Virus record (IMG/VR): IMGVR_UViG_3300028809_000056
Span: 1-28,841 of that record
Origin: a virus
DNA length: 28,841 bases
Direction: 5' to 3' (one strand)
Each line of letters begins with the position of its first letter. Positions within the stretch are counted from its first letter, which is position 1. The notes beneath the pieces were generated by a model that was not told the origin of the DNA, did no database searches, and saw only the letters and a program-made list of their open reading frames with translations. The position numbers and the translations under genes are program-made. Positions 1 through 11,476 of the stretch are shown one piece after another.

Positions 1-229
1 CCGATACCGTGCCGCTAGGAGTGACTGCTACGGACGAGTAGACGATGACGCCGCCTGCACCCCCTCCGCCGCCCTGACGAGAGCCGCCGCCTCCGCCGCC
101 AGCAACCACGAGCACGTCAACCGATGAAACGGAGGCTGGGACATTGAATGTCCCTGAGGCCGTGAAAACCTGATAGGTCTGCCCACCAGCACCAAGGAGC
201 AATCCAGCATGGGCAAGAAGCCCGCTCAT
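1..229 (-). CDS. Glycine-rich phage tail/fibre protein, C-terminus cut by window edge
   Basis: Only the first 76 residues are inside the window; the frame stays open to base 1. The ATG at 229-227 overlaps the TGA of the preceding gene (ATGA). The protein begins with a short hydrophobic stretch, then TYQVFTASGTFNVP and a VDVLVVAGGGGGGSRQGGGG run. This is the pattern of the glycine-rich domain found in many phage tail fibres and tail-tip proteins, where a small beta-sandwich is followed by poly-Gly loops. Its place at the end of the virion operon fits a receptor-binding or fibre-tip component. The family call is from motif recall; the C-terminal domain that would define function is not visible. 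Confidence 0.7.
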   Translation of the reverse strand, partial: MSGLLAHAGLLLGAGGQTYQVFTASGTFNVPASVSSVDVLVVAGGGGGGSRQGGGGGAGGVIVYSSVAVTPSGTVS

Positions 230-753
230 GCAAAGGCCTTAGCGAGCGTGGCGTTCCAGTTGGTGCCGTTGTTCAAGGTGGTGATGGATAGGAGGTCAAC
301 TGCGCCAGAGCCGGTAGAAACAGCCCCGGCAACGCCGCCAGCCCATCGGAACGAGGCGGGCCAAGCCACCGTTCGGGGCGTCGTGTCTTGGGTGAAGCGA
401 ATCATCTTGCTCGCACCCTTTCCAGCGCCAGGAAGGTTCGTAAACAGGATGCTGGTGATGTTCGCTGTCAGGGCAATCGTAAAGTAGTCGCCTAGTGACA
501 GGTCTATTGTCGCGACGCCAGCGGCCGGGGTGACGACGTTCACGGCATCTTTGACGGAGACGGTAGGCGCTCCAGCTGTGCCGCCAACAACAATTCCCGT
601 TCCTGCGGTCACGGATGCAACGCCGCCTGCCGCGCCGACCTCAGCAACCGTTGTATCCATCGTCACGCCGCCCACGACAACGGAGAGGGTTGCGGTTCCG
701 GGAAGTGGCGGAGTTACGTCATCGTATCCAACGCCAAACTGCTTGGTAGGCAT
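226..753 (-). CDS. Putative tail-associated structural protein (175 aa)
   Basis: A 175-residue protein rich in Val, Thr, Ala and Gly with an alternating beta-type pattern (TATLSVVVGGVTMDTTVAEVG near residues 20-40, then a TAGTGIVVGGTAGAPTVSV segment). Such sequences are typical of beta-structured fibre or baseplate-like modules. It starts at 753, sharing one base with the upstream stop (TAATG), and its own stop overlaps the start of the glycine-rich tail gene. It is therefore translationally coupled inside the tail-fibre cluster. No enzymatic motif is visible. A structural role is inferred from composition and position only. Confidence 0.55.
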   Translation of the reverse strand: MPTKQFGVGYDDVTPPLPGTATLSVVVGGVTMDTTVAEVGAAGGVASVTAGTGIVVGGTAGAPTVSVKDAVNVVTPAAGVATIDLSLGDYFTIALTANITSILFTNLPGAGKGASKMIRFTQDTTPRTVAWPASFRWAGGVAGAVSTGSGAVDLLSITTLNNGTNWNATLAKAFA

Positions 754-1038: not shown

Positions 1039-2856
1039 TCAAATCACCATATAGGTATAGGTATACAGGCACGCAATACTGGTCGTGCCGTTTGAGTAGA
1101 ACTGGAATATAGCCCTGTCGTTGGTGAAGTCAGCGGACAGTAGTGCGGTGGTAATAGGGACTTGGAGCGTGCCGCCGGCCCCGCCTAGATTGGTGGCTGC
1201 CGTGAAATTGGATGCGACAGGCAGGCTCAGGTCTACGCGCGTTAACGTGCTTGCGCCGACGGTCGGGTCAATGTCCACGCGACCGCTCACGGTGACTGTA
1301 TTTCCAACGCGCATCCATTGCGCCGGTGATGCAATTGAGCTGTCTACGTTCGTAACGTTGGTCAGTGTCGGGGTATAGGTGCCGCTAGCGAGCGTCCCGA
1401 CGCCAGTCAGATTGGTGTGCTGCGCGGCCGTCAGGTGGTAGAACTCATTCGACGTTCCGCCCTGTAGGCCGGACAACTGGTTATGGTTATTGATGGACGT
1501 TGTGCCGAGCACGTCTGTAAATGCGGACTGGATAGAGACCGGAGTGTCTACCCCCTTCTCGAAGATGTATCGCCCAATGAGCAGCGCTTGGTTGTAGAAA
1601 TTCTGAGTTAGATAGGGAGGCGGACCTTCGTTAGCCGCTGCGCCAACGGTGTTGTGCTCGGCGATGCCATAGGCAAACCCGTACTTCGTCCCATCGAAGG
1701 ACATAAAGAACCAGAGGTTCGCGAATTTGTTATTGCTCATGGCGACGAGCGAACCCGTTCCCATGTTGTTAAAATTGAGATTATCCCACTGCGAAACGCC
1801 ACCCGAGATGGTGAGGTTGACGCCGTTGTAATACGCCGAGAACATCGAATCAGTCGTCGAGTTCTTGGCGGCCACGTTAAAATCAGAGACGCGCGACCAC
1901 AAGCGTCCCGCCGTCACCGTTGTGCGGCGAGTTGCTGAGTTGCCCAGGATGAGACCACCGACACTAGCATCTCGAAGCACCGGCCCAAGCGCGTCCGCTC
2001 GCTGAATCAGATTTGTGATGACGTCGCCTACCCGATAGGGGTTGGCCGTTGTGTTAAGCGCCCCATCCAATCGGAACGCCGAGCCAATGGGAATTTGAGT
2101 GTCACGGTCCCAGGTATCAGTTAGGGACTGAACGACAATCGGGTTCCCGCTGTTGTAATCGAGCGCGTAGAAGTGGGTGGTTTGAACGTCAGGGACGTTA
2201 AAGTCAGCCTGCGAGAAATTGCAGAACCGAAGCTCGCTCACGTTATCGTCTAATACTCGAAGAATTGCAGTACCGGCACTGACCCGAGCGGTCACCCCGT
2301 CCACAGCAGACACTACGCCGCCCGTGATGATTCCGGGAGAAAGCATTACGTTGAACGCTTCTTGCAGCGTGGAATACGTGGAATAAGGAAGCCGCGCCAT
2401 CCGAACTTCGGACGAAGCAACTAGCGGGTCGGAGACAAGGAGATTCCCGTTCTCGTCACTGAGATAGTTTCCGTTCTCATCGACCAAATAAGTCGCGTGC
2501 GGGCTGGGGATTTTGTTCGGGGTCAGCAGTTGCCAGCCCTTTATCCCGTCCTCATCCGTGGAGTAGAACGAAACCGGGAGCGGAAGCGCCTCGTCTCCAT
2601 CCAGGTTAAACGTGAGCGCATGCCCGGCAAAGGTGCCGGAAATTTTGACCGACTCAGCGCCGATGAAGAGAGTTCCGAGGATGGCTTCAATCTGCGCCTT
2701 TAGTTCAGCGATTTCACTGGCCGAACCGCCATTTGCCTCTATGTCAGCAAGCCTCTTTAGCAGGCTGCGGAAGAATTTAAAGAACTCAGTAGGCAGCGCG
2801 CGGCGCTCAGCATCCACCCAGCGCTCTACGCCTGGCAGGATGGGTGAATCAGCCAT
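1039..2856 (-). CDS. Tail fibre protein (605 aa)
   Basis: Large fibre-like protein. The N-terminal ~60 residues are helical and charged (ERWVDAERRALPTEFFKFFR, then a leucine-rich coiled coil), which would fit attachment or trimerisation. A Gly/Asn-rich stretch near residues 120-145 repeats the unit DENGN-L-SD twice. The centre and C-terminus are beta-rich. Near residue 460 the motif NNHNQLSGLQGG...EFYHLTAAQH occurs, a module recurrent in phage tail fibres. Two starts are possible, TTG 2859 and ATG 2856; the ATG was preferred, with AGGG about nine bases upstream. It overlaps the preceding gene by eight bases. Host-range determinant by inference. Confidence 0.8.
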   Translation of the reverse strand: MADSPILPGVERWVDAERRALPTEFFKFFRSLLKRLADIEANGGSASEIAELKAQIEAILGTLFIGAESVKISGTFAGHALTFNLDGDEALPLPVSFYSTDEDGIKGWQLLTPNKIPSPHATYLVDENGNYLSDENGNLLVSDPLVASSEVRMARLPYSTYSTLQEAFNVMLSPGIITGGVVSAVDGVTARVSAGTAILRVLDDNVSELRFCNFSQADFNVPDVQTTHFYALDYNSGNPIVVQSLTDTWDRDTQIPIGSAFRLDGALNTTANPYRVGDVITNLIQRADALGPVLRDASVGGLILGNSATRRTTVTAGRLWSRVSDFNVAAKNSTTDSMFSAYYNGVNLTISGGVSQWDNLNFNNMGTGSLVAMSNNKFANLWFFMSFDGTKYGFAYGIAEHNTVGAAANEGPPPYLTQNFYNQALLIGRYIFEKGVDTPVSIQSAFTDVLGTTSINNHNQLSGLQGGTSNEFYHLTAAQHTNLTGVGTLASGTYTPTLTNVTNVDSSIASPAQWMRVGNTVTVSGRVDIDPTVGASTLTRVDLSLPVASNFTAATNLGGAGGTLQVPITTALLSADFTNDRAIFQFYSNGTTSIACLYTYTYMVI

Positions 2857-3661
2857 CAATCACACCCTTTGCGCCAAACTGGAAGCCCTGGGGAGCAGAG
2901 AAGTTTGGCGAGCCTGTGTTGCCTTCGGTCACGTCGAAGGTCACCGTAAAGCCGGTGGAGGTTGCTCCGCCTTCAATCTTCCACGTCACAAATCCACCCG
3001 CCTGGGAGTTTGTTGGCGTGATTGAAACCATCGGAACCGTGCCGCTCTTGAACGGGGTCGTGAATGTCACCGCCAAGCTAGTCTGTTGGCCGCCCGATGC
3101 AGGCGCAGAGCCGGTACCCCAAAGCTCCTGAAACTTCAGAGCATCGCCACCTCCGGCGACAAACGAAGTCGTGGCTACCGTAATATCCGGCTCGGGAATC
3201 TCTGGCTGCGCTTGCAGGATATAGCCGTCCCCATCGGAGTTGACGACTACCATATCGCCCGGCGAGCCCGTGGGGTCAGGAAGATTGAAGATGGGGCCAG
3301 ACCACAGGATATTCGTTCCATCCGTGGTGATGTACTCGCCGGAGTGGCCAGTCGGGCTCGGGATAGCCAGTCCTGGCGCAATCTCCGGCCGGATGTCGGT
3401 CGGGTTGACGATGGAACTGTCATCAGCCGCATCCAGCTTGTAGGTGTAGTCGCCATCGAGCCATACCGGGTCCGGGAAACGACCGTTCGAGTCCAGAATG
3501 ACCGGATTAGGATTTGGCGTCGTGAGGGCGTAATCCTGATACGTGTTCTTCGGGGTTGTCGTATTCAGGATGTAGAAGTAGGCCTTGCCGCCCGGAGCTG
3601 GGGTCAGGCCGAGCAGCGTATCGAGGACGGGCGCTGGGTCGCGGAAACGGTAGGCAGCCAT
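2849..3661 (-). CDS. Tail spike/fibre N-terminal-type virion protein (270 aa)
   Basis: A 270-residue protein whose first ~110 residues resemble the head- or tail-binding module of podovirus spikes. It has a KAYFYILNTTTPKNTYQD segment, then NPNPVILDSNGRFP and a DGDYTYKL segment at residues ~25-80. That pattern of end-product, default value, then 'NPVVLDSNGR' is common in particle-binding domains. The rest is Gly/Thr-rich beta sequence. It follows the ejection-protein gene with no gap and precedes the tail fibre gene. I infer an adaptor or short fibre linking the fibre to the tail hub. It could also be a baseplate-like cap protein. Confidence 0.65.
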   Translation of the reverse strand: MAAYRFRDPAPVLDTLLGLTPAPGGKAYFYILNTTTPKNTYQDYALTTPNPNPVILDSNGRFPDPVWLDGDYTYKLDAADDSSIVNPTDIRPEIAPGLAIPSPTGHSGEYITTDGTNILWSGPIFNLPDPTGSPGDMVVVNSDGDGYILQAQPEIPEPDITVATTSFVAGGGDALKFQELWGTGSAPASGGQQTSLAVTFTTPFKSGTVPMVSITPTNSQAGGFVTWKIEGGATSTGFTVTFDVTEGNTGSPNFSAPQGFQFGAKGVIDG

Positions 3662-7900: not shown

Positions 7901-8458
7901 TCAGGTCTCCAACACAGAATAATCGTCGTTCATAACCGCCCACCTACGAAGGAAGCGGTCTCCCTTGGCTTGCTGGCCCAATGCCTCACATTGAGCTGTC
8001 ACCCAAGCCGGCGACTGGCGGCGTGCCCATACGTCCATCGGCAGGGCGTAGTGGTGCACGTCATGTTGAATCCCGTCGCGAGTATACGCCTTGTCTCGGG
8101 TGTATTCAGGCAGGAAGCCCATCTTCTCGGTGAGCTTTCGAGCAGGAATGTTGTCGGCCGGAACCTTGGTCACGATGCGCGTGCAGTCGGTCCCACAGAA
8201 CAGGAAATGGGCAGCGGCTTGACAGCAATCAAAAGCGTTTTTCGTCCTTGGTAGAAAGAGGGTGTGGACTTCGTACACCCCATCCCCGAGGCCGTGGAAG
8301 AAAAAGCCTCCTGTCTCAAACTCGATGCCGATGCCTTGGTCGAATACCTGACTCAGCGGGAGTGGCAAATCCCGCTCGCTGTCTTTCGTTACCCAGCGAC
8401 GCACGTCAGGGTGGTCAATGACCGATTGCAGGAAGTCGGGGGACTGAGCAATCCTCAC
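7901..8458 (-). CDS. GNAT-family acetyltransferase-like protein (185 aa)
   Basis: A GTG start at 8458 overlaps the stop of the small gp10-tail gene (GTGA), with AGGG seven bases upstream. The N-terminus (FLQSVIDHPDVRRWV) resembles the RimJ/phage GNAT opening. A central beta region follows (GIGIEFETGGFFFHGLGDGV, YEVHTLFLP). The VPADNIPARKLTEKMGF segment near residues 98-114 is the acetyl-CoA-dependent 'N-x-x-A-x-K-x-x-E-K-x-G-F' motif B. Family members transfer an acetyl group from acetyl-CoA to amines. Such genes recur between stabilisation and ejection genes in related podoviruses, but the substrate is unknown. Virion-protein or host-protein modification are both possible. Confidence 0.75.
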   Translation of the reverse strand: MRIAQSPDFLQSVIDHPDVRRWVTKDSERDLPLPLSQVFDQGIGIEFETGGFFFHGLGDGVYEVHTLFLPRTKNAFDCCQAAAHFLFCGTDCTRIVTKVPADNIPARKLTEKMGFLPEYTRDKAYTRDGIQHDVHHYALPMDVWARRQSPAWVTAQCEALGQQAKGDRFLRRWAVMNDDYSVLET

Positions 8459-8670
8459 GATTCGCCCTCAATCTCAGCCACCGCACCCATTAGGTCGGAA
8501 GGGATTGGCGAGGTAACGGTAATCGTGGCGTCAATCACGCGCGCCTCACCGAAGCGGTTGAATCGAATGCGCTTGGCGTAGTCGCCAACCTCCCCAAGAG
8601 ACGCGGACTTACTGACAATTCGATGCCGATTGCCGTTCTTCTGGACGTCGATGCGGACTTCGCGAGGCAT
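8455..8670 (-). CDS. Detached C-terminal segment of gp10-like stabilisation protein (71 aa)
   Basis: The ATG at 8670 shares a base with the stop of the large upstream gene (TAATG). The 71 residues (MPREVRIDVQKNG, then SASLGEVGDYAKRIRFNRFG and ARVIDATITVTSPIPSDLMGA) match the pattern I recall at the C-terminus of P22 gp10-type packaged-DNA stabilisation proteins. In those, a DDGGRTWS-like strand is followed by S-x-G-x-x-G-E-Y-x-x-R-[VI]-x-W-x-R-[LF]-G and R-V-F-x-V-x-x-S-D-P. Here that segment stands alone, coupled to the gene for the rest of the protein. It probably assembles beside the larger product. The assignment is by motif memory, without an alignment. Confidence 0.65.
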   Translation of the reverse strand: MPREVRIDVQKNGNRHRIVSKSASLGEVGDYAKRIRFNRFGEARVIDATITVTSPIPSDLMGAVAEIEGES

Positions 8671-11081
8671 TAGCTGTACTCCTGGGCGACCCAAAACAGT
8701 TCGTAAGCTCCTGCTAGAGTGGATTGCGTCCAACTTCCGTTGGAGCCGTCCGGGCTAGTCCACATTTGCCCTGGGCCACCGCCATTGGGTGAGGTGACCG
8801 CCAAGAAGTTAGCCCCGCTCCAAAATAGCTGCCGAATGGGGTGCGTGAACGTCTGAGAAGTCAGCACCCAAGCGCCACCGCTAACGCGCCTCAAAATCTG
8901 GTTGGTTCCTGAGCCAGCAAGTTCGATGGATGTCCGGTCATAGGCGTGCGCTCTCACGGGCCCTGCGCCAATTCCTACGGGCATAGCGGGAGAGGTGAGG
9001 CCGGTCGAAACGTTCCAGTCCTTAATGACGCCAATTCCAGCCACCTGTCCGCAGAGGACGTAATGTGTGGCGTTGACGCCCAGCCTGCCGCCCGCCGCCA
9101 GCGATAGGCCGTGCGCCACTTGGTCGGTGAAGGTGAGTCCAGCGTCGCTGGTAATAGAGAATTGCGTGTCGCCCATGCCGCCTGCATTCATGCCGCCAGG
9201 GGTTCCGGTCGCCAGATACTTGATAGGGGTTCCGGCGATGATGGTGTAGGTCACCGCGCTATCGGTACTGCGCTTGACGCGGTTTACCCCAGCCTCTCCG
9301 GGAATGACGAGCGCGCCAGTGAGGTAAATCGAGTCTTCGCTGCCCGAGTTGACGTTAGCCGCCGTGGCCGTCCATGCACCCGCGCCTGCGGTGTCATTGT
9401 AGGCGGCCGAGATTGCCCCGCCCAGGTTGTGAGTCGCATACCTTCCGGCCGGGATTCCCATGCCATACCGACGGATGTTGCCTCCGGAAGATACCGGCGC
9501 GGAACTCCAATTTGTGTCGCCGACTCCCTGAATCACGATGTCATTGACGCCGAGGCGCGCCATCATAATCATCGGCATCGCTACCGAGATTCCATCCGAC
9601 AGGTCCATAAACAGGCCTTCCGCATCGGTCACGCGCACAACGAACGGGTACATGCCGATAGTGGTCGGCGTGCCGGAGATGGTGCCTGTAGGCGACAGCG
9701 ACAACCCCGGAGGCAGGATGCCGGAGCGCAACGTCACCGCAAGCGGAGCCGTGCCGCCGCCAATGGTGTAGGAGAAGGTGTAGGGCGTATTGCGGAAGGT
9801 GCTCGGCGCATCGCCGGAGATGGTCGGTCCGGTCGGCTGGTCGGGAAAGAGAACACACACCGACTCTTCGCCGCCGGTCTGAAATTTCAGCTCGACGTTG
9901 TTGAGCGTCATTTCATTTTCGGCATCCCATAGCTTTCCCGTAACCCGCTTACGTACCAGTGGGTCGCAGGCGTCGAGCTTGTAGAGCCAGTCCAGTTCAT
10001 AGAGTCGGCCGTTGATGGAGCTGCCGACAATCCAGCGGCCATTCCAGAACACCGCATCTGTGACCGCCCAATGCGGCATGTTCCATGTGGAACGGCGATG
10101 CCACTGACCGGTGAGCACGTCATAGCCGAAGGTGAAACGACCCGGAACGGTAATGTAGTAAATCTTGTGGCCGCGCGCCTCGAAGGTGAAGGCGTAGGCC
10201 TGATTAACTTCGGCCTCGGTGCACTCGGTAAAGGCGGCGTCGATAGCGTCCGTTGAAATGCGAACAGGCGTGTAGCCCTCCATCCGTCGCACAAGGCGCT
10301 TGTCATCCAGCCAGAAGACCGAGTTATCCAGATTCCGAGGCGTGAACTTAGCCGCGCAGCCAACCTCAATCACGGTGTTACTGGCGCGCTCGAACGTACC
10401 CTCGGAGGCTCCAGTATTTACAAACGGCTCAATGGTGTCCTTGCCGAAGATGAGGACTTCGCGGTGAGACACCAGCAACGAGACCATGCGGTCAGGGTCA
10501 GCCTCGGCCTCGTAGCGGTCCAGCGTGTTATAGGCGTAGGCATCCGCCAGGTCCGAGTGAAACCAAAAACGCCCCTGCGGCTCAATCTGGCACAGGTACT
10601 GGTCTACGTAATCGGCAACGAAGGCTCCTGGATAGCCTTCGTCGGTAATCTTCCCGAAGACCAACGTATTCGTATTGAACACATAGCCCGCAGACCCGTT
10701 GACGATAAGTAGCTCATTCCCAAGGCCTCGCTGGTTGTGCGCCATCGAGACACGACCGACGCCGGGAATTGTGCCGTACGCAATCGCCACGCCGTTATTG
10801 GAGATTTGGTAGAGGGTTTGCGCGGCGACAACAAACAACTTGCCTTCCACGTTGCGCATCCCACGAATCGGGCCGACGTCGATGATGGTCGGCCCCGGAG
10901 AAACGGACTTGGTGATACGCACGAACGGCTTCACCCCAGGCGCGTCACGAAGCTGCCATTGGGTCAGCGTGCCGGGAGCCTCCGCGCGTAGCGGAATCCA
11001 GTTGAGGGTGTCTTGTCGGGTCCAGTGCAGATTCGGGTCTGCGTAGAAGCCGCCGACGACTTGAATCTCACGCTTCCTCAT
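8670..11081 (-). CDS. P22 gp10-like packaged-DNA stabilisation protein with added C-terminal domains (803 aa)
   Basis: Residues ~1-400 follow the P22 gp10 (packaged-DNA stabilisation) pattern: GRVSMAHN near 109-116, a 'footprint' of beta-propeller strands, RFWFHSDLADAYAYNTLDRY near 171-190, and SHREVLIFGKDTIEPFVNTG near 205-224. In P22, gp10 sits below the portal and gp4 and plugs the filled head. At residues ~417-500 there is a putative-Ig (He_PIG-type) module (GGGTAPLAVTLRSGILPPGL, TGTISGTP, VVRVTDAEG). Residues ~503-803 form a Ser/Gly/Thr-rich repeat-like beta region resembling a propeller. P22 gp10 has 472 residues, so this is an extended, apparently chimeric version. The gp4-like gene is directly upstream (ATGA overlap). 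Confidence 0.75.
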   Translation of the reverse strand: MRKREIQVVGGFYADPNLHWTRQDTLNWIPLRAEAPGTLTQWQLRDAPGVKPFVRITKSVSPGPTIIDVGPIRGMRNVEGKLFVVAAQTLYQISNNGVAIAYGTIPGVGRVSMAHNQRGLGNELLIVNGSAGYVFNTNTLVFGKITDEGYPGAFVADYVDQYLCQIEPQGRFWFHSDLADAYAYNTLDRYEAEADPDRMVSLLVSHREVLIFGKDTIEPFVNTGASEGTFERASNTVIEVGCAAKFTPRNLDNSVFWLDDKRLVRRMEGYTPVRISTDAIDAAFTECTEAEVNQAYAFTFEARGHKIYYITVPGRFTFGYDVLTGQWHRRSTWNMPHWAVTDAVFWNGRWIVGSSINGRLYELDWLYKLDACDPLVRKRVTGKLWDAENEMTLNNVELKFQTGGEESVCVLFPDQPTGPTISGDAPSTFRNTPYTFSYTIGGGTAPLAVTLRSGILPPGLSLSPTGTISGTPTTIGMYPFVVRVTDAEGLFMDLSDGISVAMPMIMMARLGVNDIVIQGVGDTNWSSAPVSSGGNIRRYGMGIPAGRYATHNLGGAISAAYNDTAGAGAWTATAANVNSGSEDSIYLTGALVIPGEAGVNRVKRSTDSAVTYTIIAGTPIKYLATGTPGGMNAGGMGDTQFSITSDAGLTFTDQVAHGLSLAAGGRLGVNATHYVLCGQVAGIGVIKDWNVSTGLTSPAMPVGIGAGPVRAHAYDRTSIELAGSGTNQILRRVSGGAWVLTSQTFTHPIRQLFWSGANFLAVTSPNGGGPGQMWTSPDGSNGSWTQSTLAGAYELFWVAQEYS

Positions 11082-11476
11082 TCGTACTGGTCCGAACGAA
11101 TGTTGTAGTAGGCCCAGCCAAAGGGAAGAGAGTCCAGAACCAGCGGGTTCGCGGCGTAGCCGGCATTGCGCAGGTCGTTCAAGCCGGAGGTGGCAATAGC
11201 CCGGTCTTGCGGGTCCATCTGCTTACCAAAGAGCGGACACAGGCGAAGGGCTAGGTTGTAGGCAATGGCCTCTTCTGCCTCCGGAGGCGCGGGCAGCGGG
11301 TCGTTGACTTCTGCAACGGTATTCCAGCCCAGTGCGATGTTCTTGGCCTCCCAGCGGCGCATCATCGTGTTGAGCGCGTTGAGGGCGTCCTTGGCGTCGT
11401 CGTCATCCGGGGCTTCGTTGGAGCCGATGACGCGGATAATCATCAGGGCGCGACGGATAATCTCTAGCGTATTCAT
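11078..11476 (-). CDS. P22 gp4-like tail accessory factor / head-completion protein (132 aa)
   Basis: A 132-residue helical protein with the gp4-family layout: N-terminal helix (EIIRRALMIIRVIGSNEAPD), then DDAKDALNALNTMMRRWEAKNI, a PLPAPPEAEEAIAYNLALRL helix, and a C-terminal 'LNDLRNAGYA' stretch. In P22, gp4 binds under the portal as the first tail adaptor. An AGGGG ribosome site lies about six bases before the ATG at 11476. Its stop overlaps the start of the gp10-like gene (ATGA), matching the gene 4 - gene 10 order of P22. It lies between the coat and stabilisation genes, as expected. Confidence 0.75.
   Translation of the reverse strand: MNTLEIIRRALMIIRVIGSNEAPDDDDAKDALNALNTMMRRWEAKNIALGWNTVAEVNDPLPAPPEAEEAIAYNLALRLCPLFGKQMDPQDRAIATSGLNDLRNAGYAANPLVLDSLPFGWAYYNIRSDQYE

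Follow-up and report, generated by a model that had tools for sequence, protein, structure and literature searches.

A gp10-type tail hub gene split in two, with a variable module at the break, in short-tailed phages of Xanthomonas-type bacteria

The window analysed here, by which we mean the entire stretch of DNA, is a 28,841-base IMG/VR virus contig that carries a P22-like head-tail block on its minus strand. The block comprises genes for a terminase, a portal, a scaffold, a major head protein, a gp4-like adaptor, an 803-aa hub-type protein, a 71-aa protein (hereafter the C-piece), an acetyltransferase-like protein, ejection proteins and tail fibres. The features at the hub are collected in Table 1. 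With the adaptor gene (Ad3) upstream and a DNA-ejection gene (phrog_598) downstream, the 803-aa gene occupies the position of a gp10-type hub, between the adaptor and ejection genes. The ordinary tail-fibre genes of this virus are located separately in the window, at 1039-2859(-) and 226-753(-) (phrog_5668 and phrog_9017), and the module carried by the hub protein would be an addition to them.

Table 1. Features at the hub locus, in window positions.
Feature	Position	Strand	Evidence
803-aa hub-type protein, whole ORF	8670..11081	-	ORF
gp10/Hc3 hub part, residues 1-405: N-terminal platform strands, propeller, start of C-terminal domain	9867..11081	-	phrog_578 and model fold
He_PIG Ig-like domain, residues 416-489, first part of the putatively displayed segment	9615..9836	-	PF05345 and predicted strands
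Variable C-terminal module, residues ~505-803, all-beta, degenerate Asp-box/propeller-like	8673..9569	-	Likeness to the L134 module; Asp boxes of L126
C-piece, 71 aa, separate C-terminal end of the gp10 protein	8455..8670	-	phrog_578, phrog_19101, alignment with the ends of intact relatives
TAATG stop-start overlap of the 803-aa and 71-aa genes	8668..8672	-	Sequence; compared across loci
AGGAG Shine-Dalgarno-like site, 8 nt 5' of the C-piece ATG	8679..8683	-	Sequence
gp4-like head-tail adaptor (Ad3), 132 aa, upstream partner gene	11078..11476	-	phrog_637 (3.4e-22); weak P22_Tail-4

Profile comparisons show that the 803-aa and 71-aa genes are the halves of one gp10-type protein. Residues 1-405 of the longer product match positions 1-399 of phrog_578, a head closure Hc3 profile of 486 positions (5e-101), and residues 22-69 of the C-piece match positions 423-471 of the same profile (7e-4). 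In addition, residues 1-69 of the C-piece match positions 524-592 of phrog_19101 (1e-9). In intact relatives, including the Thalassomonas phage BA3 and vibriophages, both phrog_578 stretches are present in one ORF and are separated by ~10-11 residues, and in the intact Rhodoferax phage P26218, where the match is shorter, they are some 30 residues apart in one ORF. The solved members of the group likewise have both hub parts in one polypeptide. Because these parts reside in two ORFs in the window, the locus is filed as a variant rather than as a canonical gp10-type member.

Structurally, a monomer model of the 803-aa chain alone aligns over residues 3-408 with residues 2-405 of P22 gp10 (8eap_D), with a Z score of 36.3 and an rmsd of 2.2 over 372 residues. 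The portion of gp10 that has no counterpart in this chain, P22 residues ~406-472, corresponds to the next gene. An AlphaFold2 model (pLDDT 88.6) of the protein from the intact close relative L099, which is 477 aa long and 48.6% identical, can be superimposed on P22 gp10 across residues 2-473 (Z 39.0, rmsd 2.1), and the split point maps to the loop between its strands 386-397 and 408-415. In the window protein, residues ~381-410 are modelled with a pLDDT of about 56-74, and the equivalent of the long first strand (386-397 in L099), which would be the pairing partner of the C-piece, is not formed. This is how a domain lacking its partner strands would be expected to look.

Beyond the hub part, the Ig-like domain matches He_PIG with an E-value of 2.9e-11 and 44.1 bits, compared to a curated cut-off of 24, and strands are predicted at residues 419-501 with pLDDT above 90. 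The module that follows has no Pfam match, and is 37% identical over 302 aa to the module of L134 (E 2.6e-52). Canonical Asp boxes are present in L126, a member of the same clade; Asp boxes are found in both L126 and L008, where the BNR matches are weak and below the cut-off. For the module in the window, support for the fold is moderate, with a pLDDT of 44-61 at residues 531-600. In the fold searches with the window model, hub matches filled the lists and the module range was barely covered, so that the lack of a clear module match in them carries no weight. A preliminary description of this DNA had assigned the first ~400 residues of the 803-aa product to the gp10 type, had placed an Ig module at ~417-500 followed by a further ~300-residue beta region, and had recognized the closing segment of gp10 in the next gene, coupled by TAATG. 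All of these assignments agree with the results above, including the two on which that description depended most, namely the profile match of the 71-aa protein to the gp10 C-terminus and the gp10 fold at the N-terminus of the long product.

Profile scans yielded 10, 80 and 80 viral loci, with overlap between the sets, together with 10 loci from bacterial genomes; the stand-alone C-piece alignment was by itself too variable for scanning. Single-protein scans of IMG/VR returned no locus for P0002 and one locus for P0001, and no annotated phage record was found at an identity of at least 60%. In this sample, which leans to split forms because split sequences served as the query and in which many loci are contig fragments, a clade of 63 non-redundant loci contains 46 that are split, nine that are intact and eight that are permuted. 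That 46/63 relatives share the split indicates that it is not a product of chance. The phages carrying this architecture are short-tailed phages of Xanthomonas-type bacteria, and the named hosts are Lysobacter, Pseudoxanthomonas and Stenotrophomonas-type bacteria, with the exceptions of two gammaproteobacterial MAGs and an Alcanivorax outgroup. Split prophages include L173 in Pseudoxanthomonas koreensis KCTC 12208 and L172 in P. dokdonensis DSM 21858.

Insert and split occur in company. None of the nine intact loci in the clade carries an insert, and a C-terminal tail of 90-569 aa is present in 52 of the 54 split or permuted loci. In the two exceptions, L136 and L141, both split, the hub chain ends 13-14 residues past the hub part and has no module, and the C-piece forms the end of a downstream gene of 213-217 aa. 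The comparison with these module-free intact relatives supports the earlier proposal that a module was inserted and the original end kept as a separate subunit. In a hub tree from a quick IQ-TREE search, the split or intact state changes at least seven times (at least six of them required by starred branches for the split label). The intact locus L099, for example, groups with the split loci L008 and L096 (99% support), and the intact L152 groups with the split L112 and L128 (95%). The outgroups and the earliest branch (L010/L020) are intact, which suggests that the intact state is ancestral.

We propose that the 71-aa protein completes the C-terminal beta domain of the hub without a covalent link, and that each hub subunit displays a swappable module. 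On the basis of the sequences and models, we assign this reading a probability of about 0.7. The 803-aa chain would be the gp10-type hub, and after the strand ending near residue 403 it would not return into the hub but would continue as an Ig-like spacer followed by a propeller-like module. The strands still needed for the C-terminal, platform-type beta domain would come from the 71-aa chain, which is presumably translated at near 1:1 by coupling from the stop codon of the 803-aa gene. The two chains would associate non-covalently within every subunit of the hexameric hub, which would seal the tail as usual, and up to six modules would project on the side of the adaptor and fibres. In other words, the break would create one clean, one-sided junction at which module genes could be exchanged without disturbing the hub fold. 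Because module and hub would share this single junction, with no return into the hub, replacement of the module should be easy.

Module exchange leaves sharp boundaries. Between the window and L002, hub and Ig domain are 58% identical, and the modules have no similarity. Hubs that are 82-94% identical carry unrelated modules in the pairs L113/L123 (94%), L093/L095, L007/L009, L008/L096, L161/L166 and others. The DNA identity in such pairs breaks off near the close of the hub or Ig part; in split loci it picks up again at the C-piece, and in permuted loci at the next gene. In L161/L166, it stands at 82% as far as residue 391 and returns at 81% with the C-piece. Related modules are also carried by distant hubs, as in L096/L166 (hub 45%, module 56%), and the module of the split locus L007 is 36% identical to that of the permuted locus L140. 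He_PIG is the commonest first domain, occurring in 35 of 55 tails, and other tails or later tail parts score as beta-propellers (BNR, WD40-like, sortilin-like) or as Laminin_G_3.

The main rival to host binding is a structural role for the module, in which the Ig and propeller domains form an arm that rearranges during ejection and thereby lengthens or stabilises the tail tip. There is a precedent in SU10 gp17, a homologous hub whose four inserted Ig-like nozzle domains straighten to form a 28-nm nozzle (PMC9509320). The window model matches the SU10 hub at Z 23, and the frequency of He_PIG as the first domain is in keeping with such an arm. However, the SU10 insert is located elsewhere, between propeller blades 2 and 3 (PMC9509320), and unrelated folds (propeller, Laminin_G-like, and GTA_TIM on the C-piece side) interchange between near-identical hubs, as expected of adhesins or enzymes and not of an ordered nozzle. 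We regard a nozzle-like function as unlikely.

In the two-chain assembly that we favour, the modules probably touch the host, which is made plausible by the module folds (lectin, hydrolase and propeller types), by the exchange pattern and by where the hub sits, and they might bind or process host surface polymers. The window module need not be the receptor-binding protein, because the window has separate tail-fibre genes. Hub-layer proteins of another phage have been shown to bind a host receptor, with no displayed module and no split described in the abstract (PMC7241545). We also lean, with some reserve, towards the wider view that the hub break is a dedicated platform for swapping adhesin or enzyme modules of many folds among Lysobacteraceae phages, with the C-piece later re-fused to the N-terminus or to tail genes, and that the hub acts as a six-fold host-contact device beside the fibres. 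If true, this would be a natural circular permutation caught in the act, proceeding by fission of an essential tail-plug protein and then fusion.

The C-piece has the characteristics of a working part. Its divergence tracks that of the hub across the 46 split loci (Mantel r 0.77, p 0.001), and its dN/dS is about 0.05-0.2 in most close pairs and 0.37-0.45 in two more distant or noisy pairs, values which indicate that it is under purifying selection. The 71-aa protein could conceivably lie outside the hub, as a leftover fragment or with some other job, if the hub works without its old end, and the protein alone has no Pfam or PDB sequence match. This is improbable given the selection and co-divergence, as well as the retention of the C-piece in 46 split loci and its re-fusion at the N-terminus or to neighbouring genes elsewhere. 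A joining of the two ORFs by frameshifting or stop read-through, for which one could cite that in the window the C-piece frame stays free of stop codons over the 60 nt preceding its ATG (8455..8733), was rejected because the stop-to-start distance and relative frame vary among loci (-7, -3, 0, +2, +3 and +4; all three frames), and this explanation or a sequencing error at the break is also made exceedingly improbable by the Shine-Dalgarno sequence that precedes the window C-piece, by the same break in independent isolate and metagenome contigs, and by the fact that inserted modules never lead back to the C-piece within one ORF.

Three features were unforeseen in the preliminary description: circular permutants, fusions of the C-piece to other tail genes, and the frequency of module exchange. 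Eight non-redundant loci form a clade in which the C-piece HMM has its match at the N-terminal end of the hub protein, covering residues 1-70 in most of them (i-E 6e-8 to 6e-13) and 93-161 of the stop-to-stop ORF in L135. A second copy of the C-piece was looked for in these loci and none was found. The chain order is C-piece, hub part, Ig domain and module, such that the free C-terminus is kept for the module. This clade, whose hubs carry a 72-aa extension, was at first scored as lacking a C-piece, an assignment that was rejected once the C-piece was found at the N-terminus. The permutants are nested within split lineages (nearest L116, support 93; larger clade 98), and fission before fusion would therefore be the simplest order of events. 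In T7 gp12, three strands of the platform come from the N-terminus and the others from the C-terminus, and the authors suspected circular permutation (PMC6702177). Both break points seen here are consistent with a domain assembled from the two ends of the chain.

In some loci, the C-piece is found at the end of a different neighbouring gene, whose product has 281 aa and a tail-fibre domain (phrog_4950), 595 aa and a GTA_TIM domain, or 213-217 aa. The 595-aa protein of L128 (8611-10398) carries a GTA_TIM glycoside-hydrolase-like domain (PF13547, 1e-106) fused to the C-piece. The family phrog_19101, annotated as of unknown function and previously without a link to the gp10 hub, has the C-piece as its last 70 positions. 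It probably represents the L128-type protein, with the C-piece closing a GTA_TIM domain, because the lengths are equal (595 aa) and both end in the C-piece. Two further loci, L015 (8004-11462) and L170 (6980-10401), have a small tail-fibre-like cassette between hub and C-piece, consisting of an additional gene and then a phrog_4950-type gene. The latter ends in the C-piece in L015 and, judged by similarity, is followed by a free C-piece in L170.

Compared to P22 gp10, Sf6 gp8 and the Pam1 and Pan3 hubs (Hc3, 'tubeB', phrog_578, PF11134), the window hub part is homologous by profile and fold over residues 3-408, the operon place after a gp4-like adaptor is the same, and the C-piece is homologous to the last ~67 residues. 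However, each solved member is one chain of 440-472 aa and lacks a module, whereas the chain described here is either permuted or broken at the final portion of the C-terminal domain, and bears an Ig-plus-module tail. The nozzle proteins T7 gp12 and SU10 gp17 share the propeller-plus-platform plan, and Ig-like domains are also present in SU10. Their inserts, in contrast, lie within one chain between propeller blades, and neither a split nor a permutant series in one clade is described for them. Full-text literature searches, whose coverage mostly excludes subscription journals, found no description of a split or permuted gp10-type hub.

The comparison shows that fission and permutation of an essential, highly conserved tail-plug protein are tolerated repeatedly in a single phage clade, a result relevant to the open question of how circular permutants originate. 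The findings also point to rapid, host-directed exchange of modules at the tail hub and not solely at fibres and spikes, and they explain small orphan ORFs and families such as phrog_19101 that automatic annotation leaves unconnected to the hub.

Other arrangements of hub and module were also encountered. In L147 (2156-5738), a second mode of splitting is seen, in which each of two module-bearing ORFs has its own copy of hub residues 1 to about 60, followed in one by He_PIG and an unassigned beta module and in the other by He_PIG and BNR. A third ORF holds the other 410 aa with the native end. In L084 (3674-6283) and L067 (6489-9143), intact gp10-type genes of 869 and 884 aa carry an insert of ~400 aa near hub position 98, which is a different site, within one chain.

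The gene directly after the hub or C-piece in the clade usually encodes one of four exchangeable small proteins, which are GNAT-like (phrog_651), DUF6445/2OG-Fe-oxygenase-like, Asp/Asn-hydroxylase-like, or cupin-like without a Pfam match. Examples are located at 7901-8458(-) in the window and at L009:4235-4783, L006:9146-9697, L002:6206-6646 and L119:9657-10211, among others. This gene appears to be exchanged independently of the split state of the hub, and its products are possibly enzymes modifying the tail modules.
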